Part shown: positions 5,691 to 59,043 of the stretch, one piece after another
Layout: every line of letters begins with the position of its first letter
Numbering within the stretch: the stretch's first letter is position 1
NCBI GenBank assembly: GCA_033239005.1
Contig: BSQZ01000028.1
Span: forward strand, 638,501 to 702,500
Length of the DNA: 64,000 bases
Direction: 5' to 3'
Source: Lamellibrachia satsuma
Taxonomy: Eukaryota; Annelida; Polychaeta; Sabellida; Siboglinidae
Program-made: the position numbers and the translations under genes
Notes under the pieces: generated by a model
Databases searched by the model: none
Told to the model about the DNA's origin: nothing
Seen by the model: the letters and a program-made list of their open reading frames with translations, nothing else

Positions 5691-6530
5691 ACTAAGCTCT
5701 GCCGGTATGCACATAACCGAATCTATGTATGTATGTATGGAGTGAGCTGTCGAACGACGGATCTCGTACCGAATCAGTTGTGTTTTTTCTGGTGACTGTG
5801 TCAGCCGATTGGCGACGCGCACTGGCATCCACATATAGTGCAGTCATAGGTGGTCGCTGGTCCTTGCGGAGGTTGACCATATTTCCGTTGTGTTCTTTGC
5901 TGATGTCCACAGATAGTGCAGTCATATGTGGTCGCAGGTCCCTGCGGGGTTTGACCAATCTGCCTCTGTGTTCTTTGTTGATGTCCACAGAGAGTGCAGT
6001 CATAGATGGTCGCAGGTCCCTGCGGAGGTTGACCATTCTTCGGCTGTGTTCTTTGTTGATGTCCACAGATAGTGCAGTCATAGTTGGTCGCAGGTCCCTG
6101 CGGAGGTTGACCATTCTTCCGATGTGTTCTTCGGTCTTTGATTATTTGTAGTTGTTTCTGCTCGAAGTCCTGTACACCCGTGCGACTAGTATGACACCAC
6201 AGAGGGCGATTTGTTGCTGTCGTTTCCCACGTATTACTAGGGGTGGAACAGGACTTCAGCGTTGATTTTAGCACGTCTTTGTTTCTTTTTCTTTGGAGGC
6301 CGCTTGTTCGGCAACCGATTTTCAGTTGGCCATAGAACATCGCCTTAGATATGCGGTCATCAATCAGGTGATCAGATCACCGGAGTTCTGCTCTCGTTTG
6401 ATGTGTTCCGCATTGGTCTATTACTTCAATGTTTGTCACAAGATCTTGCCATTTGATGCCTTCTATCCGTAAAGCAGGGTTGTAAGTACGACGGCACAAT
6501 ACACGTTGATTTTCGTGCTCAGGCACCACA
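5690..6530 (-). mobile_element. LINE (non-LTR) ORF2 C-terminal fragment
   Basis: Read on the minus strand from about 6530, the translation runs IEGIKWQDLVTNIEVIDQCG, a stop region, then FYGQLKIG, an LKSC/W block, and a Cys-rich end with CTICG. This is the usual order of the post-RT tail of LINEs whose ORF2 ends in a CxxC...H zinc knuckle (knowledge of the family). Only the last 250 or so codons remain. The 3' end runs into a CATA microsatellite (about 5725-5740), consistent with a LINE tail. The zinc-knuckle segment is repeated four times. Confidence 0.8.
5837..6145 (-). repeat. 78-bp in-frame repeat duplicating a LINE zinc-knuckle module
   Basis: Four units start at 5837, 5915, 5993 and 6071, with exact 78-bp spacing. 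On the minus strand each encodes 26 residues containing QPPQGPAT then YDCTICGHQQRTQ. The unit length keeps the frame, so one LINE C-terminus carries four copies of the CxxC module instead of one. Confidence 0.9.
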
Positions 6531-6862: not shown

Positions 6863-7140
6863 TCTTCGGACGAGTCAAATAATTAGTACAGCAGTCCATA
6901 AATCTGTGTTACACTGTTCGGACGAGTCAAACGATGAAGACATCAGTCCATAAATTTACGTTACACTGTTCGGAAGAGTCAAACAATAAAGACATCAGTC
7001 CATAAATCTACGGTACACAGTTCAGACGAGTCAAACGACAAAGACATCAGTCCATGAATCAATGCACTGCAGTTCGGACGATTCAAACAATTGGGACATC
7101 GGCCCATGACTCGAAGCAGCATTGTTCGGATGAGTCTAAA
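6863..7140 (-). repeat. 52-bp tandem repeat downstream of the fibrinogen-domain gene
   Basis: Six imperfect units of 51-53 bp begin with TTCGGACGAGTC or close variants near 6865, 6917, 6968, 7020, 7073 and 7126. The array directly follows the stop codon of the minus-strand gene, so it would lie in its 3' UTR or flank. Read on the minus strand, the unit shares GACTCGTCCGAACAGTG and a weaker second half with the 57-bp array at 18.3-18.9 kb. Confidence 0.85.
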
Positions 7141-7142
7141 AG

Positions 7143-8405
7143 TCAAAGTCCAAACACTGACCAAAAGTGTGTCTCCTCCTCTGCGGCTCTTTCTTCCTCT
7201 TCCAGTAATCGCTGACGTTCCTCTTCCTTCTTCTCTTCATTTCGCTTCTTCTGCTTCTCAACAATGAAGCACATGGTGAGAGCCGTAGCGACGACGAGCA
7301 GAGCAATAACACATGCGATCACGAAGATGGGGCTTGATCTCAACGCAGCCGGTGTCGGTGGCTTTTCCGTCATTTCTCTTGTCGCCGTCGTCGTCGTCGT
7401 CGTCGTCGTCGTAATTTTTCTTGTCATTGTTGTCGTTATTTTGGTGCCGCACAATGGACCGGTGAAGCCTGCAGCACATTTGCACAAAGTTGTCTGTTTC
7501 GTGGCGTCGTACAAGCATAACCCGTTGTTCTCGCACGTGTTTGGCTTCTCACACTTTACGCCACAGTGCGTCTTCGGGCAGACGCAGCGGTGACTGCTGC
7601 TGGCTGCCACGTACTCGCAAACGCCATTATTCAAACACGGGTTGTTACATGCGCGAGAACCACTATCTGACGCCCGAAATAACATATGTGATCCTCGCAA
7701 CGCCTGACTGCCTTTGAAACTGTCCACGTATATTGAGTTATAGCTGTTTGTGTTATTTGGTTCATATTTTCCATTCAGGAATATTATTACACATTGCCCG
7801 AACCACCACCCGCCGCTGTACACTTTTGTGCACCTGCCACTATTACCGGTGTGATCTTTCGTCAAAAACTTCTTGTTTCTTTGGTAATTCATATCTCTGG
7901 CTTTCATGTTAATTAGGGAACCTGTATTTCCATACTGTAACTTGTAGTATTCTGATTCTTTCTCCAAACGGAAGTTTTCAGCTTGCATAGAACAAAATGT
8001 GTTGTCGTATGCAACGGCTCCAACATGAAGTTGACACGTATATTTATTTGTTAGTTGGTAAACAATTTCGTTTCCCAGCCACAGTTCCGTGTCAGGTCCG
8101 CCTTGTTCTCCGAATCCATTTTTGTAATCTTCCCAAAGTCGTGTGAAATTGACTCTACCATTCACTCTGCGCTGGTACACGATCCACCCGCCCCCTGAAG
8201 TTATTTGATCACACGACACCTTCGTATTAGCAAGGCTAGGTATGCCCGGGTAGATGGTATGAGGTCCATCTTTCGCAGTGGACACTCGAAAACATTTCAA
8301 GTCGACACAGTCCTTCGGTTTGCAGGTATTTTGGCAGAACACGGCAGCCCATAAGACCGTAAAGAAAGCGACGACGCGGCATTTGTTTGCCAGGTTGCCA
8401 TACAT
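7143..8405 (-). CDS. Membrane-anchored fibrinogen-domain/EGF protein
   Basis: The product is a 420-residue predicted type I surface protein in one uninterrupted exon. Residues 1-25 are a signal peptide (hydrophobic VVAFFTVLWAAVF). Residues 33-244 are a fibrinogen C-terminal domain with GGGWIVYQRR, the WEDYKNGFG block, GGWWFGQC and LNGKY. The Ca-binding Asp cluster normally before GGWW is weak (TKDHTGNSGRC). Two EGF-like modules follow (about 252-286 and 287-319, six Cys each), then a Thr-rich stalk (323-350) and one membrane helix (359-382, IFVIACVIALLVVATALTM). A 38-residue Lys/Arg then Glu-rich cytoplasmic tail ends it. Fibrinogen-related proteins bind glycans or act in recognition and adhesion; the ligand here is unknown. 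The start was chosen because it gives a signal peptide. The domain order (fibrinogen N-terminal to EGFs, then membrane anchor) and the lack of introns are unusual. It may be a retrocopy or a naturally single-exon family. Confidence 0.9.
   Translation of the reverse strand: MYGNLANKCRVVAFFTVLWAAVFCQNTCKPKDCVDLKCFRVSTAKDGPHTIYPGIPSLANTKVSCDQITSGGGWIVYQRRVNGRVNFTRLWEDYKNGFGEQGGPDTELWLGNEIVYQLTNKYTCQLHVGAVAYDNTFCSMQAENFRLEKESEYYKLQYGNTGSLINMKARDMNYQRNKKFLTKDHTGNSGRCTKVYSGGWWFGQCVIIFLNGKYEPNNTNSYNSIYVDSFKGSQALRGSHMLFRASDSGSRACNNPCLNNGVCEYVAASSSHRCVCPKTHCGVKCEKPNTCENNGLCLYDATKQTTLCKCAAGFTGPLCGTKITTTMTRKITTTTTTTTTATREMTEKPPTPAALRSSPIFVIACVIALLVVATALTMCFIVEKQKKRNEEKKEEERQRLLEEEERAAEEETHFWSVFGL
7381..7413 (-). 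repeat. Trinucleotide (CGT)n encoding part of the Thr stalk
   Basis: About ten GTC/CGT triplets lie inside the fibrinogen-domain gene. On the coding strand they read as ACG codons, giving nine Thr in a row in the juxtamembrane stalk, so stalk length may vary between alleles. Confidence 0.9.
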
Positions 8406-8534
8406 CTCCTTCTACGAAAACAACTCCGCACCAACAAGGCCACGTTGTTCGTCGATTGTTTCTGTGTGACGTAACGCAATTATATCAAATAAGACGAAGC
8501 CTCGGTTTCCCAGGCTCCGCGCTGTGGCGCCACT

Positions 8535-18150: not shown

Positions 18151-18304
18151 CCGTTTCAAGTTTTTGCCAGCTTGTCTTCTGGCGGACATATCTTCACTTG
18201 CCCTCCAGCCACTTGTTCAGTTGTTTAACATCAGTCAGCCACTTTTGCTTTTCCTTTCTCAATCGATCCACCACCGTCCGTTAGTATCTTCATTCATCAC
18301 TGGC

Positions 18305-18965
18305 CACTGATGCCCTTAGTCGTTTGATTCGTCCTGACAATGCTGCGTCGATGCGTGGATTATAGTGCCCTTCTTGTCCTTTGACTCGTCCTGACAGTGC
18401 TGCGTCGATGAGTGGATTATAGTGCCCTTCTTGTCCTTTGACTCGTCCGAACAGTGCTGCGTCGATGCGTGGATTATAGTGCCCTTCTTGTCCTTTGACT
18501 CGTCCTGACAGTGCTGCGTCGATGAGTGGATTATAGTGCCCTTCTTGTCCTTTGACTCGTCCGAACAGTGCTGCGTCGATGCGTGGATCATAGTGCCCTT
18601 CTTGTCCTTTGACTCGTCCTGACAGTGCTGCGCCGATTCGTGGATTATAGTGCCCTTCTTTTCCTTTGACTCGTCCGAACAGTGCTGCGTCGAATCGTGG
18701 ATTATAGTGCCCTTCTTTTCCTTTGACTCGTCCTGAGAGTGCTGCGTCGATGCGTGGATTATACTGCCCTTCTTGTCCTTTGACTCGTCCGAACAGTGCT
18801 GCGTCGATGCGTGGATTATAGTGTCCTTCTTGTCCTTTGACTCGTCCTGACAGTGCTGCGTCGATGCGTGGATTATAGTGCCCTTGTTGTCCTTTGACTC
18901 GTCCGAACAGTGCTGTTTGGTGCATTGATTATAGTGGCCTTCTTGTCCTATGACTCATCCAAACA
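18305..18965 (-). repeat. 57-bp tandem array with A/B alternating units and open frame
   Basis: About eleven 57-bp units (19 codons each) stay open for 211 codons on the minus strand (18925-18290). Units alternate between ALFGRVKGQEG and ALSGRVKGQEG types with an interposed HYNPRIDA block, giving a 114-bp higher-order period. The unit is related to the 52-bp repeat after the fibrinogen-domain gene. Openness is a by-product of a stop-free unit whose length divides by 3; there is no start context or domain to support a gene. Confidence 0.88.
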
Positions 18966-19179
18966 GTGCCTCTTCGATTCACGGATACAGACACATGGTC
19001 ATTTTATATTACTGCGCATACATGTCCACCTACGAGGATCAAAATGACTGAGATTATTGGCCAATCGACGTCGCTCCGTGCGGCTCGGCAGTCTCGCACC
19101 TACATGGTCGCTTCGCACACGCACGACCCATCGCTCCACCCCTTCATATAAAACAAAACAGAGTAAACGCCAGAACCGT

Positions 19180-33440: not shown

Positions 33441-33507
33441 ATGGAAATGGCAGAAAAGAAGAACCATTACGTAGAGGCCTTGGTGGATTTCATTGCAGGA
33501 GTGCTTG
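33441..33507 (+). CDS. Carrier exon 1
   Basis: ATG at 33441 opens [20 protein letters not shown], then VLG. DFIAG matches the start of carrier helix 1. The donor is CTTG/GTGATA in phase 1, matching the acceptor phase of exon 2. The short distance from ATG to helix 1 is normal for this family. Confidence 0.72.
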
Positions 33508-36500
33508 GTGATATATTATTGAGTTCTTCAACTGTTTTTAGTGTACTAGTGTTTTTAGTGTACTTCCCCCAAGTTATTGATGGAATTTTTAAATTGTTGT
33601 ACCAGTATGGGAAGATACTGTAATTATTTTCTGCAAGTGATACTTTATTCATGCATGCATGTATGGATACATGCACTTGCACGCACAGCCGCATACACAC
33701 ATCCGGACCTGGGGTCAATTCTTAATTGAACTGGAATTGAAGTAATCCAAAAACATTTTGAACTTTAATTGAATTGATAAAAATCAAAATAGATTGAAAG
33801 TCTGCAAATATAGTTGAATTGAATGAATTGATCAATTTGTATAAAATGGTAATTTTTTGGTACATTTACACGTGTAAACATAAAAATATGTTACAATTTA
33901 GTAACTCTTGGTTGTGTTAAACTTATTTTGAAGTTAATAGAGGTTGCAGAAGCTGCTCTAAGTAACCAAGTACAATTGGTCAACCTGCAGAGATCTGAAA
34001 CCACGTTCTTTGTGGGACAACACATAAAAGGGAGTAATTGGCTTGCTAATCCTTGAGCAGTTATTTTCTGAGGCCAAGCACTTAACAGCCGACAGGTCTT
34101 CCCATGTTGTTTGAGTAATGGCATTGTCTGTACACGGTACACTCTGGCTTGTACAAGATATACAAACAGTATAGACATAAACATTTGTGTAAGCTTGCAG
34201 TGATATATGTAATATGGTAGTAATGGACTATTATATATTACTTTAGGATCAAATACTATTGCCATTACTTTTGAACAAATCAATAAAATAATTATTTTAC
34301 TGAAGATCGGTGGTTTGTAGGCTAGGCCAGCTCCATATGTCAGATAAATTGTGCATTTTTTATAAAAACACCAAAATCCTTTGTGAACAGTATTCGCTAC
34401 ATGTACGAAGATATGTGTGTCAGCCTCTTTGTCAGAAAAAGAACTCAACTTTTCCAAGTCTGTCGTCGGCAAAGAAGACATTGCGATCGTGGTAGCATAA
34501 ACCACCTTGTCTTCTGACGTGAGATGAAGATTGAACTGAACTATAGTGGCACTGTCAGACATGTTTGCATGAACAGCGGGGATCTCTGGTCGTTGTAGAC
34601 TCTGTTTCCAGACATGGCGTTATATCAACCTTCTTAGTGGTTCGCAGCTTCCCATACTGCGACAAAGATGATGGGGCTCCCTCATTCACATGAGAGAAAA
34701 ATCAATTAAGGTCATTCATTGTCTCTGGTTTGGCATACGACTTACTGTCGCAAGAACAAATTACAGTGTTTTGTTTCAGTGAATCCATTACCAGGTTTCC
34801 TTTTGGTGCAACATTTGATAATGGTGTGCTGAATAGTGTAGGTATGTTCCTTGGCAAGGCATCCATGAATGATTTTGTCCGACAAACCAACTTTCCACGA
34901 ATTAATGTGATGAATTGTTATTGGCCCAGACAATCCACTTGATGGACTGTCTCCATGATTTATGGGAAGCTGCGAACCATTAAGAAGGTTGATATACCGC
35001 CACGTCTGGAAACAGAGTCTTCTCCAGGATGTCCTGATTTTCTTCTAGGAATGGGTTCACTATGTTTTGTATAACTGCCTTGATAGATTTAGTTTGATGT
35101 ACGGATGTATTCTGTCCTCCTGGCAGGTGGTCATGATGGGGTCCTCCTGGCAGGTGGTCGTGATGGGGTCCTCCTGGCAGGTGGTCATGATGGGGTCCTC
35201 TTGGCAGGTGGTCGTGATGGGGTCCTCCTGGCAGGTGGTCGTGATGGGGTCCTCCTGGCAGGTGGTCGTGATGGGGTCCTCCTGGCAGGTGGTCATGATG
35301 GGGTCCTCCTGGCAGGTGGTCATGATGGGGTCCTCCTGGCAGGTGGTCCTGATGGGGTCCTCCTGGCAGGTGGTCCTGATGGGGTCCTCCTGGCAGGTGG
35401 TCGTGATGGGGTCCTCCTGGCAGGTGGTCGTGATGGGGTCCTCCTGGCAGGTGGTCGTGATGGGGTCCTCCTGGCAGGTGGTCGTGATGGGGTCCTCCTG
35501 GCAGGTGGTCGTGATGGGGTCCTCGTGGCAGGTGGTCGTGATGGGGTCCTCGTGGCAGGTGGTCGTGATGGGGACCTCATATGCAACTGTCGGTGCATGT
35601 GTCATGTTCAGTATCATCTTCAAATTCAGTGATGACTCTCACAACCTCTGGGCACGATATCACCCAGCATCTCAATGCACCAGGATCTTCTGTTAAGTCT
35701 ACTACTTCCCCTAATCCTTTGACCGAAGCATTCATCTGATCATTGGACTGATCAATTGCCATAATGGAAAACTGCTTCCCATTTTGTATACAATGAACTT
35801 TCCTGCAGAGAATGCTACAGCGTGACAATTTACAAGCAATGCATATGTGCACTGGTGAAATCTTATATCAGCTTATCTGATAAAATATTATTAATTCATT
35901 ATAAAAATATTGATGTACACCATGTTTACCTAATATGCAGCCATTCGACTTGATTCATAGGAAATTGTGGGTTGACCCCACACCCAAATCACTGATTCCT
36001 CGCCTTTTGACCGATGCAGGTGGCGCCACATCTGTGTACATTGGTCAGCCGCTGGACACGGTCAAGGTGAAGATGCAGACATTTCCTGCACTGTACAAGA
36101 ATGCCTCCCAGTGTTTCATGTCGACCGTGAGGCAAGAGGGAATAGCACATGGCCTGTATGCCGGCACGGTGCCAAGTCTGATGGCACAGGTGTCGGAGAA
36201 TGCAGTTCTCTTTATGGCATATGGTGTATGTCAAAAACTTGTCGCGTCTGTAGCTAGCAAGAGGAGCGTGGAACATTTGTCTGTCGTGCAAAATGGACTT
36301 GCAGGTACTCTTTCACTTTCATTTTGTTTGTCGTGCGTAATGGATGTGCAGGTACTCTGTCACTTTCTTTCTGTATGCTCTGTAAACTGGATTTGCAGGT
36401 ACTGTTTAACTTTTTTGTCCGTCCTTTATTTTGGACAAGCAGGTACTCTGTCACTTTCTTTCTGTCTGTCATATAAATTGGACTTGCATGTACTCTTTCA

Positions 36501-39248
36501 CTTTTATTCTGTCTGTCATGCAAAATGGACTGGCAGGTATTCTTTCACTATCATTATGTATGTCGTGTAAAATCAACTTACACATGCTCTTTCACTTTTG
36601 GTCTGTCTGTCATGTAAAACAGACCTAGAGGTACTTTTTTGTTTCATTTTATGTTATCCAAACTCAAGCTAGTTGCTATTTATCTTTATTTTTTTATTAT
36701 CCACAGTGTCATCTGAAATGTACATATTTATATCATTTAATAGCAGTTGTGTTGAAGCATTGTAAAGCATACCATATTTGACCTGTTAATCGTACATGCC
36801 CTGTAAAGTATGCCATATTTGACCTGTTAAGCGTACATGCCCTGTAAAGTATACCATATTTGACCTGCCCTATTAAGCATACATACCCTAATAAGCATAA
36901 ACCCTTATTTTTAAGGCCTTTTTTGGTCATGCTACTCATTTCCAAACTTAGCCACAATTATTACAACATTATTATTATTACCATTTTTATTCGGACTCAA
37001 CATCCACAAACATGCACATATTAAACAAGTTATAAAGTTCCATTTAAGAAACAGCAGTTAGAAAACATTTTATACTGTGCTTGTGCTTAGATATCACAGC
37101 ATTACAATCTTTCATTACCACCAATTCACAAACCATATTTGCGAAGTCATAGCGTTTACATTGATATTCCACATTTCTTTACATTTATACTTAATGGCTC
37201 TTATAGGTTTGTTATTCTTTAATATATATTTCAGGCGCTGAAATATTTTCCTCCTTTTTGACTCCAGGTTTACTCATTCAAACAATAGTGTGACTTGTCT
37301 GGGAAGTAGTGAGGCATTCTGCAATTAGTACATAAAAGCTTTGTGTGTGAACAAATTATATTTTCCAAGAATGAATATGTTCAGATAATTTACGAAATGT
37401 AAGTTAATAGTACGGCTTATTGCTACTAGGGAGCGCTGCAGCATTTTTCTCGTCGCTGGTCTTGTGTCCGACTGAACTGGTCAAGTGTAGGATGCAAGCG
37501 ATGCGGGAGATGGAGTTGTCTGGACAACTGGATGCATCGCACATTCAGAAGGCACACCTTCACCACGTGTAAGTCACTCATTCAGAAGGAGCACCTTCAC
37601 CACGTGTAAGTCACTCATTCAGAAGGCATGCCTTCACCACGTGTAAGTCACTCATTCAGAAGGAGCACCTTCACCACATGTAAGTCACTCATTCAGAAGG
37701 CACGCCTTCACCACGTGTGAGTCACTCATTCAGAAGGCACGCCTTCACCACGTGTAAGTCACTCATTCAGACGGCACACCTTCACCACGTGTAAGTCACT
37801 CATCCAGAAGGCACGCCTTCACCACGTGTAAGTCACTCATTCAGAAGGCACACCTTCACCACTTGTTAATCACTCATTCAGAAGGCACGCCTTCACCACG
37901 TGTAAGTCACTCATTCAGAAGGCACACCTTCACCACGTGTAAGTCACTCATTCAGAAGGCACGCCTTCACCACGTGTAAGTCACTCATTCAGAAGGCACA
38001 CCTTCACCACGTGTAAGTCACTCATTCAGACGGCACACCTTCACCACGTGTAAGTCACTCATTCAGAAGGCACACCTTCACCATGTGTAAGACACTCATT
38101 CAGAAGGCACACCTTCACCACTTGTTAGTCACACATTCAAAAGGCACGCCTTCACCACGTGTAAGACACTCATTCAGAAGGCACACCTTCACCACATGTA
38201 AGTCACTCATTCAGAAGGCACACCTTCACCACGTGTAAGTCTCTCATTCAGATGGCACACCTTCACCACTTGTTAGTCACTCATTCAGAAGGCACGCCTT
38301 CACCACGTGTAAGTCACTCATTCAGAAGGCACACCTTCACCACGTGTAAGTCACTCATTCAGACGGCACACCTTCACCACGTGTAAGTCACTCATTCAGA
38401 AGGCACGCCTTCACCACGTGTAAGTCACTCATTCAGAAGGCACACCTTCACCACGTGTAAGTCACTCATTCAGAAGGCACACCTTCACCACGTGTAAGTC
38501 ACTCATTCAGAAGGCACACCTTCACCACGTGTAAGACACTCATTCAGAAGGCACACCTTCACCACGTGTAAGTCACTCATTCAAAAGGCACACCTTCACC
38601 ACGTGTAAGACACTCATTCAGAAGGCACACCTTCACCACTTGTAAGTCACTCATTCAAAATGCATATCTTCGTCACGTGTAAGTCACTCATTCAGAAGGC
38701 ACACCTTCATTATGTGTAAGTCACTCATTCAGAAGGCACATCTTCACCATGTGTAAGTCACTCACTCAGAAGTAAGTCAGTCTTGTATTCAATTTCACAC
38801 ACCTACTTACAACTCCTTCACTTTGTGTTAGTCCTTTGTGAATCAGGTTTGTAGATGTGTAAGTTCAGTAAAAGATTGCATATGAATCTGTATAATATAT
38901 AGAGCAGGACCACGTTTCCCTTTTTTCATTGAATTTTGACTAAATTAATTATTAAATTGTATTATTGCATATTATATTGTATTCAATTATTTTGACTGGA
39001 TCCAGTCAATACAGTTGTAGTTTGTCCAATGATTTAGCAAAAACTAAATAACGCTAGATAGGTTAAATTTTTCACAAAACAAGATTAGCAAGAAAAAATC
39101 AAATCAAGAGGGATCTTTAAGGTTGTTTTTTGACATTTGATTCCAGTAGTTATTACTATGTTTTTTTTACTCGGGTTGTTTGCATGAATTAGCAATGACT
39201 AATCTGAAAGATCGACTAATATTAATTAGACTTCCCTACTGTATATTA

Positions 39249-39301
<53 letters not shown>

Positions 39302-39320
39302 TATATATATATGTATATAG

Positions 39321-39393
<73 letters not shown>

Positions 39394-40376
39394 GGTTGAC
39401 TGAATGACTTTAATTTTGTACTTGAGTAAAAGTAAAAGTAATTCACCTAAAAATACTTGAGTAAAAGTAAAATTACTTTGTAAAAAAACACTTAGAAATA
39501 ACAACAACATATGATGAGTAATATTATATAAATTACACAACTTGCATCAGAGAACTGTTTTGCAACCACTCTGCCTATAACAAAGTGTTTCCAGCAGCCT
39601 TAATTAGCTGGTCAATCGGTCTGCCACCCTTGAACGTGGTGCTCACTTGGATGCTTGGAAAATTAGATTATCATTAATGAGAGCTCACAACATCAAATAA
39701 TTTCTGTTAAATACATAACTTAATTAATGATGAGGCACAATTTGTCTTTTTATCGATCTGTTCCAATGGGGTATGGGAGGAGCTAGATTGTACAACAGGA
39801 TATGCATACGCAAGTGTGATTGTATCTGAGTAGCTAGAGGGTCAGTCCAGTAGTAGCAGTAGCCTCTCAGGGAAACTGGTCAGGTAATACAACGTAGCAC
39901 TGCCCATAGTAAAATTAACAAATACATTTGATGCCTAGCTGATGAAGCCATCTGGCTTGTGATCCCCCACCTTCTCATGTCTTCCAGGATATGTCTTATC
40001 AGCTCACACAAACATTGAAACAACAAGATTTAGCAGCTAGCTGGGTTGGTTACCTGGTTCCAGCTGGGGCTAGAACTGGTCAGAAGACAGACCAGTGCAA
40101 CAGAGGAATGCTGTTGCAAATTGCAATTAAAAGTGCCCTGTCAGGGCCCCTGTCACTGATATTATTTATTATGGGTCAGCTTGAATAAGCCATTGGCATT
40201 GCTGGAAAAAGATGCTGCCAAATGGTAGAGTATCAATTCTTTACTTTTTAGTTCTGTAGAGTAATCATTATTATAAATTTATTAAACATCTCAATATGAA
40301 TTTTATTCGTGAAAGTAAAATGCTGTTTAATGCCGGTAAGCCGGTTAGGCAGTTGCTAACAATGGGCGAATATTGG

Positions 40377-40417
<41 letters not shown>

Positions 40418-43400
40418 TAAATATATCATCATCATCATCATGCTGTCAGTCGCTATGCGACAAAGACTGCTTTCATTTCTTGACCCCATTTAGTTCTCTG
40501 CTTTGAGAGTGATGTTCATGAGTCGGTCTTTATGTCTCTCAGCTTGAGGTTTCTCTTGATGGTATCCTTGAACCGGAGACGAGGGCGTCCTCTCTGTCTG
40601 TGACCAGAAGACAATTGAGAGTAGAGGATCTGCTTTTGTAGCCTGTCTGATGACATCCTCATGAGGTGTCCAGTCCACAGGAGATTCTTTTTGATCAGAA
40701 GATCTTCCATAGAGGGCAGCCCTATCCGACAGAGTATTTCCTTGTTTGTCACTTTGTCCTACCGTGTTAGCCTCATGATCGAACGCAGATGTCGCATCAT
40801 GAAGGCATGCAGCTTTTTCACCTGTCGTCTGTACACTGTCCAGGCCTCGGCTCCGTATAGTAAGGTGGACAGCCCAGTTGCGCGGTAGATCTTGCCTTTG
40901 ACCTGCGTGGACACATGGTGGATGTTCCAGAGTCTCTGGCGTAATCGGCCGAAAGATGCGCTAGCCTTGGCCATCCTCCTCTGTATTTCAGCATCAATGC
41001 GTCCATCACTTGATATAGTGTTTCCGAGGTAGGTGAATTCCGGAACAGAATTAAGCTTGTTTCCATCAACCATGATATCCTCCTCTCGGGTTCTTGTAGA
41101 GTTGGGTTAGTACAGCACTTCCGTCTTCTTGATGTTAATCTTCAGGCCGAACTACTTTGATGCATCGGAGAAAGCATCCACTATTCTCTGGATCTCTTCA
41201 GCAGAGTGGGCAACCAGTGCACTGTCACTGTCACTGTCATCTGCGTATAGCAGCTCTCTCACAAGTATCTGGGTAGTCTTGGTCTTCGCTCTGAAGTGTG
41301 CGATGTTGAATAGGTCAGCGCTCTGTCTAGACTGTATATAGACGCCATCTCCCATGCCTCGGAAAGCCTCGACAAGCATTGCTGATAGGAAGATGGAGAA
41401 GAGCGTGGAGGCCAGTACACAGCCTTGCTTGACACCATTGGTAACACCGAACATTTCCGAGACTTCCCATCCAACACTCACATTCGCCATCATTCCTGTA
41501 TGTAGAGCCTCGATCATGGTTGTGAATTTCTCTGGGCATCCATATTTCCTCAGTAGCTGCCATAGCCCGGTCCTTCCGACTGTATCAAACGCCTTCGTGA
41601 AGTCGACAAATACCATGTATAGTGGTCGGTCCTGCTCAGTGCACTTTTCTTGTAGTTGTCGGAGACAAAATATCATATCCACTGTGCTCCGGTTGGATCT
41701 GAAGCCACGCTGTGTCTCTGGAACTACTTCTGGTGTTATGTGAATAGATAGTCTGTTGAGCAGGATCCTGGCGAAGATCTTGCCTGCTATGGAAAGAAGA
41801 GAGATTCCTCTGTAGTTCCCACAGTCTGTTCGATCTTCTTTCTTGGATGGTTACAATGCTGGCATCCTTCCACGCTTGTGGTACAGAACCCTCCTCCCAG
41901 GCTTTGGTGATTAATTGGTGCAGTCTGTTGGACAGATTGTCTCCTCCGTGCTTCCATACTTCAGCAGGAATTCCATCACCCCCAGGTGCTTTGCCATCTT
42001 TCAGGAATTCCATTACCCCCAGGTGCTTTGCCATCTTTCAGGAATTCCATCACCCCCAGGTGCTTTGCCATCTTTCAGGCCGGCGATTGCTCTAGCCATC
42101 TCATCCATGTTTGGAATCTCATCAAGGCATGTGTTGGTAATGCGCTGCTGGATGTTGACAAGAGCTTCATGTTCTATGTCGCCAGGGATGTTGAGTAGTT
42201 TTTGGAAGTATTCACTCCATCTTGCCACAACTCTCTTGCTCTCGGAGAAGGTCTCCATTCCATCTGTTGACTTCAGGTGAACAGGTCCCTTTTTCGCGGG
42301 TCCCCACACTTCCTTCAGTCCATTGTAGAAGCCCTTCATGTCGTTTCTGTCTGCAGATCTCTGCAGCTCCTCTGCCTTCATTTCCCACCATTCTGACTTC
42401 AGGGCATGGGTGCGTTTTTGTAGCAGTCTGCAGGCATCTTTGTACGCTGCAATGGTGGATCTAGTACTGGTAAATATATATACAGTGTATATGTGGTATA
42501 TATACCAGGTATATATATATATTTCTATTTCTACCTGGCATGTTTGAATCTGATCTTTGTATACATGTGTATAGTTGGTATTTATACACAGTGTATATAT
42601 GAACTAACTTATGGTGTTATATGACATTATAACATTCTATTCTACCAGGATCTTGTTTAAGATCTTCTGCTATGAAATAAGTTATTTCCTTTATTGTTCC
42701 CATAGCCTATTGATCACTTTGCTTATAGATGGTTATATTTAATTTGTATTCTTCCAAGCCTATGGTACAAGAACCCTCCTGCAAGCAGGAATTAATTGGT
42801 GGCAGTCTTTAGAAGCTTGTTCCCACCTTTTAAATATTTCCCCACCATTTATCACTTCAGTGTTTGCATCTTCCAGGACTTATTTACCCACCAGCTTTGC
42901 AATCTTTGAATGATTACATAAATGTCTTTGTATTTTAATGCCGATGTTAACCATATTATGTTTGAATCTCCATCAGGCAGTATTGAATTACTTCTGCCTG
43001 TTGATAGCCTTATTTGAATGTTGTTAGTATGGTGTATGCTGGATGTTAGTTATATGAAGTGAAAGGCATCTCTGTCTTGTGCAAAAATTAGATTTACTTC
43101 TAGTACTACAGCCGCCTTTGAATGTAAATTTCAGGTGAGGAAAAGTATTGAAGAATATGCCGTTCGATTAACGAAAGCCAGCGTTGGATTTCCCCAAGAT
43201 ACCATCAGACATATTTGTCATAATTATTTTCATGTTGTGTTGGGAAAGCTCATTTTATCATAAACTATTATCTATGGAACTGAACCTAGCAATGTAACAC
43301 CAAATAATACTTCGTTTTTATGTAACAATCTTACACCAAATAAATGTAATAAATACTTGGGTATACAGTCTGTAGTCACACCAAACAAAAATCAGAACTG

Positions 43401-46298
43401 TGGTTCAGATGGTGGTTATTGAACGATTCTTATGAATGCATCTAAAATATGGCGACAGTTAATATTCTTGGTTCAAGTTATTAATACACATTTGCCTTTT
43501 TTAATTATACCCAAACACGCAGAAAGATTATGGACACATTAGTGTAAAAGCAAGAATTCTAAACAATGCCGGGTTATCATATAGCATGATTATTTGGTAA
43601 CTCACAACACTATGTAAACCATACAATAAATATGGGTTTAAATATGTTACTGCAGAAACTATGTACACTGGCAGCATGACATACAGACTGCTTTGTTAGA
43701 GAAGTAAGTAAAAGTTTACCTGTTGGTGGCTCATAGTTTGCACTCTAGGTTTTAACATGGGTTACATACGGATGCAGTCACTGATCTACCCATGTAGTTA
43801 ACCAGTCGCTCTGTCGGTCATGTCTCTTAACACTACCTCTGTACTGACTGTAGTGCTCTGACACTATTTGTCTAGGCAATGTTTCTGTGGATTATTCCTC
43901 AACACAGCATGTTACACCATAGTCTGCTATTGTTACTCATCTCTCAATGGTTTTTCTTCTGTTTATCTTTATTCCACGACAAAATTAATGTTTGTAATAA
44001 TAGTATTTTCAACGTATAATTGAATTAGTTGTGATTCATGGAAGGATGTTTCAGTGTGTTGCCATTCTTATAGGGCCAGTCATGCAGGTGTTAAACAGAC
44101 AAAGCTAATAGCATTATTAAACAGACTTGGGGTCGAAATAAAAGTGTATAAACAGAGCAACCACAGATACACTCACTGCGTAAAAAATATATTTTAGAGC
44201 AGCTTTATTTAACATATTATGATTATGCAAATAATCACATTATTCACTACATAGCAAATGATTTGATTTAAAAGGTTAAATGATGTAACTTAAAAAGGTA
44301 ATTGAAAATACCAATTACATTTTCACCAATTCTAGTTACTTTTAAAAACAAAACCAAAATTACAATTCCGGAATTGAAATTGACATTTAATGGAATTGTA
44401 GAAGTGAAGATATCACACAAGTCGCACATAACAAACATCATTATAATGTTTGGATCTCTCCAGATGGTCTATCTGTGTCACTCGCTGTTTTTGTGTTGTA
44501 CAGATGCACTAAAGACCATGGTCTGTGGTGGTCTCTCTGTCACTCACTGTTGTTGTGTTGTACAAGTGCACTAAAGACTGTGGTCTGTGGTGGTCTAGGT
44601 GGTCTATCTGTCACTGACTGTTGTTGTGTTGTACAAGTGAACTAGAGACCATGGTCTGTGGAGGTCTAGGTGGTCTCTCTGTCACTCACTGTTGTGTTGT
44701 ACAAGTGCACTAGAGACTGTGGTCTGTGGTAGTCTAGGTGGTCTATCTGTCACTGACTGTTGTTGTGTTGTACAAGTGAACTAGAGACCATGGTCTGTGG
44801 AGGTCTAGGTGGTCTATCTGTCACTGACTGTTGTTGTGTTGTACAGGTGAACTAGAGACCATGGTCTGTGGAGGTCTAGGTGGTCTATCTGTCACTGACT
44901 GTTGTTGTGTTGTACAAGTGAACTAGAGACCATGGTCTGTGGAGGTCTAGGTGGTCTCTCTGTCACTGACTGTTGTTGTGTTGTACAGGTGAACTAGAGA
45001 CCATGGTCTGTGGAGGTCTAGGTGGTCTATCTGTCACTGACTGTTGTTGTGTTGTACAAGTGAACTAGAGACCATGGTCTGTGGAGGTCTAGGTGGTTTA
45101 TCTGTCATCAACTGTTGTTGTGTTGTACAAGTGCACTAGAGACTGCGGTCTGTGGTGGTCTAGGTGGTCTATCTGTCACTGACTGTTGTTGTGTTGTACA
45201 GGTGAACTAGAGACCATGGTCTGTGGAGGTCTAGGTGGTCTATCTGTCACTGACTGTTGTTGTGTTGTACAGGTGAACTAGAGACCATGCTCTGTGGAGG
45301 TCTAGGTGGTCTCTCTGTCACCGACTGTTGTTGTGTTGTACAGGTGCGCAAGAGAACATGGCCTCTGGAGATCTAGGTGGTCTATCTGTCACCGACTTAT
45401 TGTTTTGTAAAGGTGCACTAGAGACCATGCTCTGTGGAGGTCTAGGTGGTCTATCTGTCACTGGCTGTTGGTGTCATGTATAGGTGCACTAAAGACCATG
45501 GTCTGTGGAGTTCTACGTGGTCTCTGTCACTGACTATTGTTGTGTTGTACAGGTGCAGTAAAGACCATGGTCTGTGGTGGTATTGGGGGTGTCGCTCTGT
45601 GGTTGGCAGTCTTCCCTACTGATGTCATCAAGTCCAGGGTCCAAGTACAAGTCAACCATAACAAGCCCCAGTTGTCATTTATTCCTATGTTGTTGGCTAT
45701 AATTCGAGAAGAAGGTAGGTTGATGCCAAGACAGTACTACTGGAAACCTTTCTGTGCATGTTGCTGTGCAGGCCTTAATAGAGACCATGGTCTGTGGAGG
45801 TCTAGGTGGTCTCTCTGTCACTGACTGTTGTTGTGTTGTACAAGTGAACTAGAGACCATGGTCTGTGGAGGTCTAGGTGGTCTCTCTGTCACTGACTGTT
45901 GTTGTGTTGTACAGGTGAACTAGAGACCATGGTCTGTGGAGGTCTAGGTGGTCTATCTGTCAGGTTTGCACTTGTCACCAAATTTTTACAGGATCTGGTC
46001 TAAAATAATTTAATAGTTTGTCCAATGATTTCACAGAAACTAATCTAAGACATTTGCACAAATGAACCAGCAGGTCGTAGTCGACTCTAGATAGGTTCAA
46101 TTTTTTTACCAAATAAGTATGAAACAAATTGAAGATGGAGCTTTAAATATTGTCTATTCTGACTGTACACTTTGTTTTCTTGTAGGTGTTAGGGCCTTGT
46201 ACAAGGGACTTGGTCCTACAATTCTACGGACTTTCCCGGCTACTGGGGGTCTGTTCCTTGCCTACGAGACAACAAAGAGGGTTCTGCTCGGACCATAG
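33441..46298 (+). CDS. SLC25A15-like mitochondrial carrier (span of five visible coding exons)
   Basis: The product is a mitochondrial inner-membrane solute carrier most like ornithine/basic amino-acid carriers of the SLC25A15 group. Visible coding exons are 33441-33507, 36020-36304, 37430-37568, 45553-45714 and 46186-46298. All three carrier signatures are present: [22 protein letters not shown] and [11 protein letters not shown] (each Px[D/E]xx[K/R]). Exons 1-3 join in frame with GT-AG sites, as do the last two. Exon 3 ends in phase 2 but the next visible exon needs phase 1, and about 50 residues containing helix 4 and the conserved LREVPG-type region are missing, so one exon (in 37.6-45.5 kb) was lost, diverged or overlooked. 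Introns hold a pseudogene, a LINE, and three arrays built from exon-intron junctions. The gene is tail to tail with the ERK5 gene. Whether it is functional is open. Confidence 0.8.
33600..33889 (+). other. Start of carrier intron 1
   Basis: Contains AATTGAATTGA-type low-complexity sequence (33715-33850) related to the subterminal repeats at 29.9 and 30.8 kb. Nothing coding recognised. Confidence 0.45.
34597..35024. repeat. Inverted repeat, about 62-bp arms
   Basis: The arm at 34597-34660 (CTCTGTTTCCAGACATGGCG ... GGTTCGCAGCTTCCCATA) is repeated as reverse complement at 34962-35024 with about five mismatches. The spacer is about 300 bp. It lies within the pseudogene region and suggests a local inversion or a palindromic insertion. 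Confidence 0.8.
35105..35580 (-). repeat. 27-bp minisatellite, about 17 units
   Basis: Units of 27 bp (GGTCCTCCTGGCAGGTGGTC plus GTGATGG, with GTG/ATG/CTG-type variation) run nearly uninterrupted. On the minus strand they encode a nine-residue repeat EDPITTTCQ. Several frames on both strands stay open, which reflects the unit rather than a gene. It interrupts a broken coding region. Confidence 0.95.
36020..36304 (+). CDS. Carrier exon 2
   Basis: The acceptor is TTTTGACCGATGCAG/GTGG. The exon encodes [20 protein letters not shown] (first carrier signature), then [12 protein letters not shown] in helix 2, ending LSVVQNGLA. The donor GCAG/GTACT is in phase 1. The last 24 bases and the donor are the seed of the following tandem array. 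Confidence 0.88.
36281..36655 (+). repeat. 47-bp tandem array copying the exon 2 donor junction
   Basis: About eight imperfect 47-bp units. Each combines the last 23-24 bases of exon 2 (TGTCGTGCAAAATGGACTTG plus CAG) with the first 24 bases of the intron (GTACTCTTTCACTTTC...). The first unit is the real junction. Several later copies keep a CAG/GTACT donor-like core (for example near 36350, 36398 and 36441). Confidence 0.9.
36733..36905 (+). repeat. Intronic 47-bp tandem repeat (x3)
   Basis: About three units containing GTATACCATATTTGACCTGTTAA-like and GTACATGCCCTGTAAA-like blocks. Not related to exon sequence. Confidence 0.85.
36910..37429 (+). other. Rest of carrier intron 2
   Basis: AT-rich, with nothing recognised. 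It ends in the acceptor TTATTGCTACTAG before exon 3. Confidence 0.45.
37430..37568 (+). CDS. Carrier exon 3
   Basis: Follows acceptor TGCTACTAG in phase 1. It encodes [20 protein letters not shown] then [11 protein letters not shown], the second carrier signature and start of the second matrix loop, ending [10 protein letters not shown]. The donor is ACGT/GTAAGT (consensus) in phase 2. Continuing past it gives an immediate TAA stop. The final 26 bases plus donor are amplified downstream. Confidence 0.85.
37541..38775 (+). repeat. 37-bp tandem array copying the exon 3 donor junction
   Basis: About 33 units of 37 bp. Each combines the last 26 or so bases of exon 3 (ATTCAGAAGGCACACCTTCA plus CCACGT) with the first 11 bases of the intron (GTAAGTCACTC). 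The first unit is the exon end itself. Most units keep GTGTAAGT, a strong donor consensus, while a few carry TTGTTAGT or GTGTAAGA. There are no unique spacers. Confidence 0.95.
38890..39135 (+). repeat. Interspersed repeat R, copy 2
   Basis: Contains ATTTTGACTGGATCCAGTCA, TTTGTCCAATGATTTAGCAA and CTAGATAGGTTAAATTTTTC. Shares these blocks with 33085-33300 and 45975-46150. Confidence 0.65.
39256..39390 (+). repeat. TA microsatellites
   Basis: Two long TA runs separated by a short ATATGTATATAGTATG spacer. Confidence 0.97.
39391..40378 (+). other. Intronic stretch with a CAGGG-ended repeat start
   Basis: Starts CAGGGTTGACTGAATGACTT and continues with repeated ACTTGAGTAAAAGTAAAA blocks, as in some hAT-type elements, but no matching right end was found. 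Nothing coding is recognised in the remainder. Confidence 0.35.
40425..42460 (-). mobile_element. LINE RT fragment in carrier intron, antisense to the gene
   Basis: On the minus strand, 42381-42013 encodes the pre-RT region and [14 protein letters not shown]. The RT follows (42034-41152) with [30 protein letters not shown] and LLYADDSD, where the catalytic box is intact. The part at 41073-40500 encodes [33 protein letters not shown] and GRPRLRFKD. Shifts fall near 42077, 41850, 41120 and 40755. The 3' end passes into a GAT/ATC trinucleotide tail at 40423-40440. No endonuclease is present. Confidence 0.9.
41967..42077 (-). repeat. 37-bp triplication inside the LINE RT
   Basis: Three consecutive 37-bp units start at 41967, 42004 and 42041, spanning the codons for [12 protein letters not shown]. 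The 74-bp gain breaks the reading frame. Confidence 0.95.
42465..42620 (+). repeat. Imperfect TATA/TGTATA-rich repeats
   Basis: Repeated TATATACAGTGTATATGTGG-like and TACCAGGTATATATATAT-like blocks beside the LINE 5' end. Confidence 0.7.
42755..42910 (-). mobile_element. Degraded LINE fragment related to 41.85-42.08 kb
   Basis: GTACAAGAACCCTCCTGCAA, TTAATTGGTGGCAGTCT and CCACCAGCTTTGCAATCTTT match the neighbouring LINE around 41880-42075, with many changes. No frame is open. Confidence 0.6.
42911..44450 (+). other. Carrier intron stretch without assigned content
   Basis: Mostly AT-rich non-coding sequence. A good acceptor-like site (AATGTAAATTTCAG/GTGAGG) lies at 43134, followed by an open stretch [19 protein letters not shown], which does not look like a carrier. 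The missing carrier exon was searched for here and not found. Confidence 0.4.
44452..45552 (+). repeat. 71-bp tandem array copying the exon 4 acceptor junction
   Basis: About 15 units of 71 bp precede the exon. Each unit is the last 22 or so intron bases (TGTTGTTGTGTTGTACAG) plus about 48 bases resembling the start of the following exon (GTGAACTAGAGACCATGGTC TGTGG...). Exact 71-bp spacing is seen between copies at 44779, 44850, 44921 and 44992. Most copies keep a TTGTACAG/G or TTGTACAA/G acceptor-like edge. Confidence 0.93.
45553..45714 (+). CDS. Carrier penultimate exon
   Basis: Follows acceptor TTGTGTTGTACAG. It encodes [20 protein letters not shown] and [13 protein letters not shown], the third carrier signature and helix 5, ending LLAIIREEG. 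The donor is GAAG/GTAGGT in phase 1. It sits inside the acceptor-type array, with copies on both sides. Confidence 0.9.
45773..45962 (+). repeat. Further 71-bp acceptor-junction copies after the exon
   Basis: Two full units and one partial unit, nearly identical to those before the exon. They begin GAGACCATGGTCTGTGGAGG and end CTATCTGTCA. Confidence 0.92.
45975..46150 (+). repeat. Interspersed repeat R, copy 3
   Basis: Contains TTTGTCCAATGATTTCACAG and CTAGATAGGTTCAATTTTTT, shared with the other two R copies. It lies in the last carrier intron. Confidence 0.6.
46186..46298 (+). CDS. Carrier last exon
   Basis: Follows acceptor TTTTCTTGTAG in phase 1. It encodes [20 protein letters not shown] then [16 protein letters not shown] and a TAG stop. 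This matches the final matrix loop and helix 6 of SLC25 carriers (YxGLxPTxxRxFPAxGxxFLxYE pattern). Confidence 0.9.

Positions 46299-48094: not shown

Positions 48095-59043
<10,949 letters not shown>

Follow-up and report, generated by a model that had tools for sequence, protein, structure and literature searches.

Results

The window analysed here, a stretch of 64,000 nucleotides from the tubeworm Lamellibrachia satsuma (contig BSQZ01000028.1 of assembly GCA_033239005.1, positions 638,501 to 702,500), carries on its plus strand an SLC25A15-like ornithine carrier gene. Its closest homologue is P0001, the "mitochondrial ornithine transporter" of the siboglinid annelid Ridgeia piscesae, with 71% over the joined window exons. 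By tblastn with this protein and refinement of the edges, exon 1 including the start codon was placed at 33441..33507, exon 2 at 36020..36304 (87% identity), exon 3 at 37430..37568 (73%), the penultimate exon 5 at 45553..45714 (82%) and the last exon 6, including the stop codon, at 46186..46298 (97%). As the exon edges were set by homology to P0001, the splice junctions of this gene are putative.

Exon 4, which by reading frame is expected to measure ~170 nt and to lie on the plus strand within 38773..44464, was found neither by tblastn nor with an exon-4 HMM nor in a search of the species' own genome. By tblastn, nothing in the window corresponds to residues 165-221 of P0001, which include the VPGYFFFFGGYE segment. 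The HMM, built from homologues, matched only exons 6 and 2, both of them its repeat relatives; its best value within 38773-44464 was E 1.4. Across the whole 735-Mb assembly the segment gave matches of at most 39% identity, located in other carriers. A paralogue (L052 on C50; 43% and 38% identity) carries the segment itself, and no junction array was seen in the 6 kb taken around it. Joining exon 3 to exon 5 results in a frame shift followed by a stop, and the reading frames of the remaining exons are open. The window copy of the ornithine carrier is thus probably broken, or its exon 4 is absent from the assembly.

Three minisatellites overlap the putative junctions of this gene, and TRF returned them where the original prediction had placed them, at 36274-36619 (47 bp x 7.4), 37542-38772 (37 bp x 33.3) and 44527-45962 (71 bp x 20.2). 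With unit alignment, array A extends over 36274..36639 across the exon 2 donor and array B over 37542..38772 across the exon 3 donor, whereas array C is composed of an upstream part at 44465..45581, across the exon 5 acceptor, and of three acceptor-containing units in the next intron at 45752..45962, all on the plus strand. As had been predicted, each unit consists of an exon edge, a splice site and a piece of intron; the composition is ~32 exon plus 15 intron bp in A, 27 plus 10 in B and 46-48 plus 23-25 in C. The exon ends obtained by tblastn with P0001 coincide with starts or ends of the arrays, and by homology to the Ridgeia carrier the true junction is a member of the array in all three cases: it is unit 1 of 8 in array A, unit 1 of 33 in array B, and in array C the 16th copy, preceded by 15 others and followed by 3 more beyond exon 5. 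With copies on both of its flanks, exon 5 sits within array C. At array A, the homologue covers exons 2 and 3 with no gap between them; at arrays B and C homology ends at the junction, the adjoining exon 4 being absent from the window, so that continuity across the junction is shown for array A alone. In its exon part, the unit of array C departs from the present exon at about one fifth of positions, and for this reason the array is probably not fresh.

The gene holds seven arrays altogether. One of these, a 27-bp x 17 array in intron 1 (35114..35578, plus strand, by TRF), lies off the junction, ~440 bp from exon 2. It was considered as a decayed mirage, as such boundary duplications are called in amphioxus, and rejected, since it shares no more than 8 nt with the exon 2 acceptor. 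Between arrays B and C lies a piece of a retroelement on the minus strand, with a Pfam RVT_1 match in the frame 41155-41850.

Other parts of the window contain arrays as well. On the minus strand, a 78-bp-unit array (5828-6131) falls mostly within the open frame 5804-6376 and a 57-bp-unit array (18319-18969) mostly within the open frame 18293-18928; both unit lengths are multiples of 3, and both arrays are possible in-frame coding repeats. A minus-strand ORF at 7146-8411 has a fibrinogen C-terminal domain, and a 52-bp array of 4-5 copies (6865-7136) is located just past its downstream end. Three minus-strand ORFs within 52169-58419 match the protein kinase domain, by eye as a MAP-kinase-like gene, and are not overlapped by TRF arrays.

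A Pfam search of the genome gave at least 111 carrier-domain matches with 150 of 186 candidates scored. From this set, part of the carriers was sampled, namely 19 stretches with multi-exon carrier loci (L037-L055) together with L056 and L057. Besides the window gene, six other carrier genes contain 11 junction-spanning arrays. Donors are spanned at L037:2841-2895, L038:2881-2984, L049:3828-4172, L049:5803-6931, L053:2942-3075 and L055:896-1029, and acceptors at L037:2235-2328, L039:2261-2322, L039:8366-8501, L049:3109-3282 and L053:6386-6575; the second array of L039 is AT-rich and doubtful. With the window gene this amounts to 14 arrays at 8 donors and 6 acceptors in 7 of the 26 sampled genes. 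Four further arrays (L046:4498-4567, L048:3437-3546, L009:2692-3213 and L049:1641-3064) were inspected and not counted, being close to junctions without spanning them. The last of these, a 50-bp x 28 array, begins at a donor with a unit that is almost devoid of exon sequence.

The junctions at these arrays differ in their backing. In L049, which we take to be UCP4, the homologous proteins UCP1 and UCP2 are continuous across the three junctions. In L053, the SLC25A38 proteins of Lamellibrachia and Ridgeia are continuous across the two junctions, and the joined exons are 98% identical to L. satsuma SLC25A38, with mismatches that fall at rough exon edges, and 88% identical to the Ridgeia protein. 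Those of L037, L038, L039 and L055 were placed solely by carrier-domain matches, by the reading frames and by the sequence of the splice sites.

The case of L053 also bears on the question whether the window arrays are a sign of decay, i.e., that the gene is a dying copy which lost exon 4 and in which the arrays grew once splicing had ceased to matter. That exon 4 was found neither in the window nor in the assembly, and that exon 3 would be spliced to exon 5 out of frame, is consistent with such a history. Its other exons, however, are open and 73-97% identical to Ridgeia, and junction arrays of the same kind occur in L053, where the annotated Lamellibrachia protein is matched at 98%. We regard relaxed constraint as an unlikely origin of the arrays.

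It had further been suggested that the repeated splice sites are decoys kept by selection. Such arrays could regulate splicing through competition, for instance with a share of the transcripts diverted to decay. In favour of this view, the GT is intact in all 33 units of array B, and use of any array B copy would lead to an in-frame TAA just past the exon 3 end. Over 13 aligned arrays, in which the authentic copies are included and L039:8366-8501 is omitted, splice dinucleotides are not better kept than other positions, however, with 91 of 106 intact where the other columns predict 98. The AG is gone from 8 of the 18 units aligned for array C, and in L049:5803-6931 the GT has become AT in 4 of 17. 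The loss in these two arrays hints at the opposite of decoy retention, but the events are few, as copies share ancestry. Selection for decoys is accordingly very unlikely in our opinion.

It is correct that 47, 37 and 71 are not divisible by 3, but this is nothing unusual, as it applies to 11 of the 14 junction arrays and to 34 of 47 other arrays; with respect to frame avoidance by unit length, junction arrays are no different from other arrays.

Whether junctions are hit more often than by chance was assessed with gene models that initially comprised hand-picked HMM exons and exons added by eye. The 27 script entries correspond to 26 genes, as L050 and L051 are one gene, with 75 introns, 150 junctions and 87,770 intron bases. 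One-exon loci, intronless genes and loci inside a larger stretch were left out of the models; L057, the same gene as L019, was not in the count. Counting arrays with a period of at least 12 inside gene spans, 14 of 61 span a junction against 2.74 expected if units are seeded uniformly over introns and intron edges, and 14 was reached in 0 of 20,000 simulations. Without the window gene the figures are 11 of 54 against 2.55 (p 0.00001), and if the number of junctions is multiplied by 1.5, 2 or 2.5, p becomes 0.0007, 0.005 and 0.02, respectively.

The count of 14 in 61 favours the finding, in that 4 of the 14 arrays are at exons that were prompted by the array or weakly scored by the HMM. A strict test was thus restricted to automatic exons with HMM E < 0.4. 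It gave 10 of 55 against 2.47 expected with the window gene (p 0.0001) and 7 of 49 against 2.26 without it (p 0.006, rising to 0.04 and 0.12 if junction numbers are taken as 1.5-fold and 2-fold). Leaving out the AT-rich case in addition resulted in 6 of 48 (p 0.02; 0.10 and 0.23, respectively). When exons were taken at E < 0.01 and the window gene was left out, 6 of 48 arrays span a junction against 2.04 expected (p 0.014), and 5 of 47 against 2.0 when the AT-rich case is also excluded (p 0.048). An earlier, hand-made strict version had yielded 7 of 50 (p 0.007). The arrays of L037 and L038 had been spotted in short loci beforehand, and both genes were already in the initial selection.

The cases are clustered, as the 14 arrays sit in 7 genes where 11 would be expected at random (p 0.003). 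Ordinary arrays do not clearly pile up near junctions: among 45 non-junction arrays, 9 are within 60 bp of a junction against 5.2 expected (p 0.06) and 14 within 150 bp against 12.6. Mean GC is 0.45 for junction arrays (n 14), 0.375 for other arrays (n 47), 0.53 for exons and 0.37 for introns. Arrays make up ~19% of the sampled intron length.

This last figure, together with the even spread of non-junction arrays relative to junctions, would suit a genome so rich in minisatellites that duplications arise anywhere and the number at junctions is due to chance, a view that competes with the excess and not with the interpretation of the arrays as mirages. The strict p of 0.12 at doubled junctions, and the 5 of 47 at E < 0.01, point in this direction. 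On the other hand, the full count exceeds its expectation both with and without the window gene (p still 0.005 at doubled junctions in the latter case), and so do the automatic exons of the strict test. Absence of any junction bias is hence a possibility of some substance, albeit one we do not favour. In the sampled carrier genes, junction arrays exceed the uniform-seeding rate and their frequency looks raised, with strict tests that are moderately significant and a significance that is gone if half of the junctions were missed. The argument that three seeds in one gene exceed chance gains some support from the excess in other carrier genes; in part, these seeds reflect a local proneness, as seen from the seven arrays of the window gene and from the confinement of the 14 cases to seven genes.

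Discussion

In our judgement, it is likely that the arrays are mirages, i.e., boundary-straddling duplications that have grown within an intron, in which the copy on the exon side is still used and the others are bystanders. The features that can be tested in sequence fit this interpretation: the units are tandem and minisatellite-like by TRF and unit alignment; with homology-based edges, each unit combines an exon edge, its splice site and an intron piece; and the authentic boundary is found among the members, with donors and acceptors affected alike. Such an array would start with the tandem duplication of a short segment straddling the exon-intron border and would then grow inside the intron through slippage or unequal exchange. 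The copy nearest to the exon would stay the working splice site, so that splicing would take place at the outermost site of the array and the reading frame would be kept. The other copies would be intronic bystanders, presumably without function and subject to drift and homogenisation. Growth on the side of the intron would explain why arrays of this kind are tolerated.

Some points speak against the mirage account. Array C flanks exon 5 on both sides, which is not given by one-sided growth, and neutral placement alone does not explain the excess over random seeding. The window arrays may sit in a broken gene copy, exon 4 being absent. In addition, some of the repeats described at human exon-intron boundaries alter splicing (PMC2812944).

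From our point of view, the excess can be imagined to have a more specific reason, namely that exon edges are preferred birthplaces of minisatellites in the tubeworm lineage, several-fold per base over intron interiors, and that junction arrays survive since splicing hides them. We put this forward tentatively and consider it rather doubtful at present. A seeding by exon sequence, with survival only at the exon edge, would agree more readily with the roughly even distribution of ordinary arrays and with the raised GC of junction arrays. If exon edges were indeed such birthplaces, splice junctions would be genome-wide hotspots of structural mutation and a standing raw material for exon/intron change. 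That junction arrays occur in about a quarter of the sampled carrier genes, above the seeding expectation, suggests that exon borders undergo a mutational process of a general kind. The tubeworm genes could serve as a tractable system to study how one splice site is chosen among dozens that are nearly identical, and whether tandem duplications start at exon edges more often than in other DNA.

In a non-exhaustive literature search, we found no report of boundary-spanning minisatellites in an annelid. Large intronic minisatellites in an annelid gene are described for intron 1 of an earthworm metallothionein; the passages on these arrays place them inside the intron and make no mention of a junction-built unit (PMC12783039). 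The dual-specific AGGT sites of the polyubiquitin gene UBC resemble the tandem AG|GT copies of arrays A and C, and the UBC unit is described as coding, in frame and variably spliced (PMC10809524). In the tubeworm, the copies are intronic and only 3 of the 14 unit lengths are multiples of 3, with none among the 47, 37 and 71 bp of the window arrays.

An intron gained by the potato RdRp gene likewise arose through tandem duplication across an intron-exon boundary (PMC4974935). We group it with the model of Rogers, in which an AGGT-containing segment is tandemly duplicated and supplies both splice sites of a new intron; slippage at AG/GT-containing junctions and a resemblance to such an intron origin had been brought up in the original prediction. 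One could cite in its favour the potato intron itself, the human boundary repeats tied to novel introns (PMC2812944) and the AG|GT that was counted by eye at 7 of the 14 array junctions. Yet this also means that AGGT is missing at the other half, including array B with its CACGT|GTAAGT, so that AGGT is not required and a mechanism specific to it is not supported. Moreover, the tubeworm arrays have many copies, not two, and adjoin exons that already exist, and none of these genes was seen to contain a new intron derived from an array. What is left is a resemblance, and intron birth by this route appears most improbable as an explanation for the arrays.

In human genes within segmental duplications, internal tandem repeats with units of ~30 bp are found at exon-intron boundaries, and manual inspection revealed 27 intron modifications (PMC2812944). 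According to this account, variation of the repeats is seen within exons or at boundaries among recent paralogues, with transcripts that show variable splicing or novel introns for some of them. In the tubeworm, by comparison, the copies lie in the intron beyond the putative authentic junction.

Lastly, mirages are described in the amphioxus genes for Adh3, the globins BflGb6 and BflGb9, PGBD5 and troponin C, with units of 10 to ~160 bp, many copies that retain an intact AG/GT and, for several genes, an mRNA reported as regular; the globin paper also puts them forward as a source of new introns (PMC3087553, PMC3902484). As in these descriptions, the tubeworm arrays are minisatellite-like tandem duplications in which a 5' or 3' exon-intron boundary is repeated next to its authentic copy. 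They differ in their annelid host, in copy numbers of up to 33, in an array that flanks an exon on both sides, and in their number, which at 14 in 7 of the 26 genes exceeds random seeding. Overall, the pattern is real and of a kind already known from lancelet and human, its host is new within the literature searched, and its frequency looks raised.
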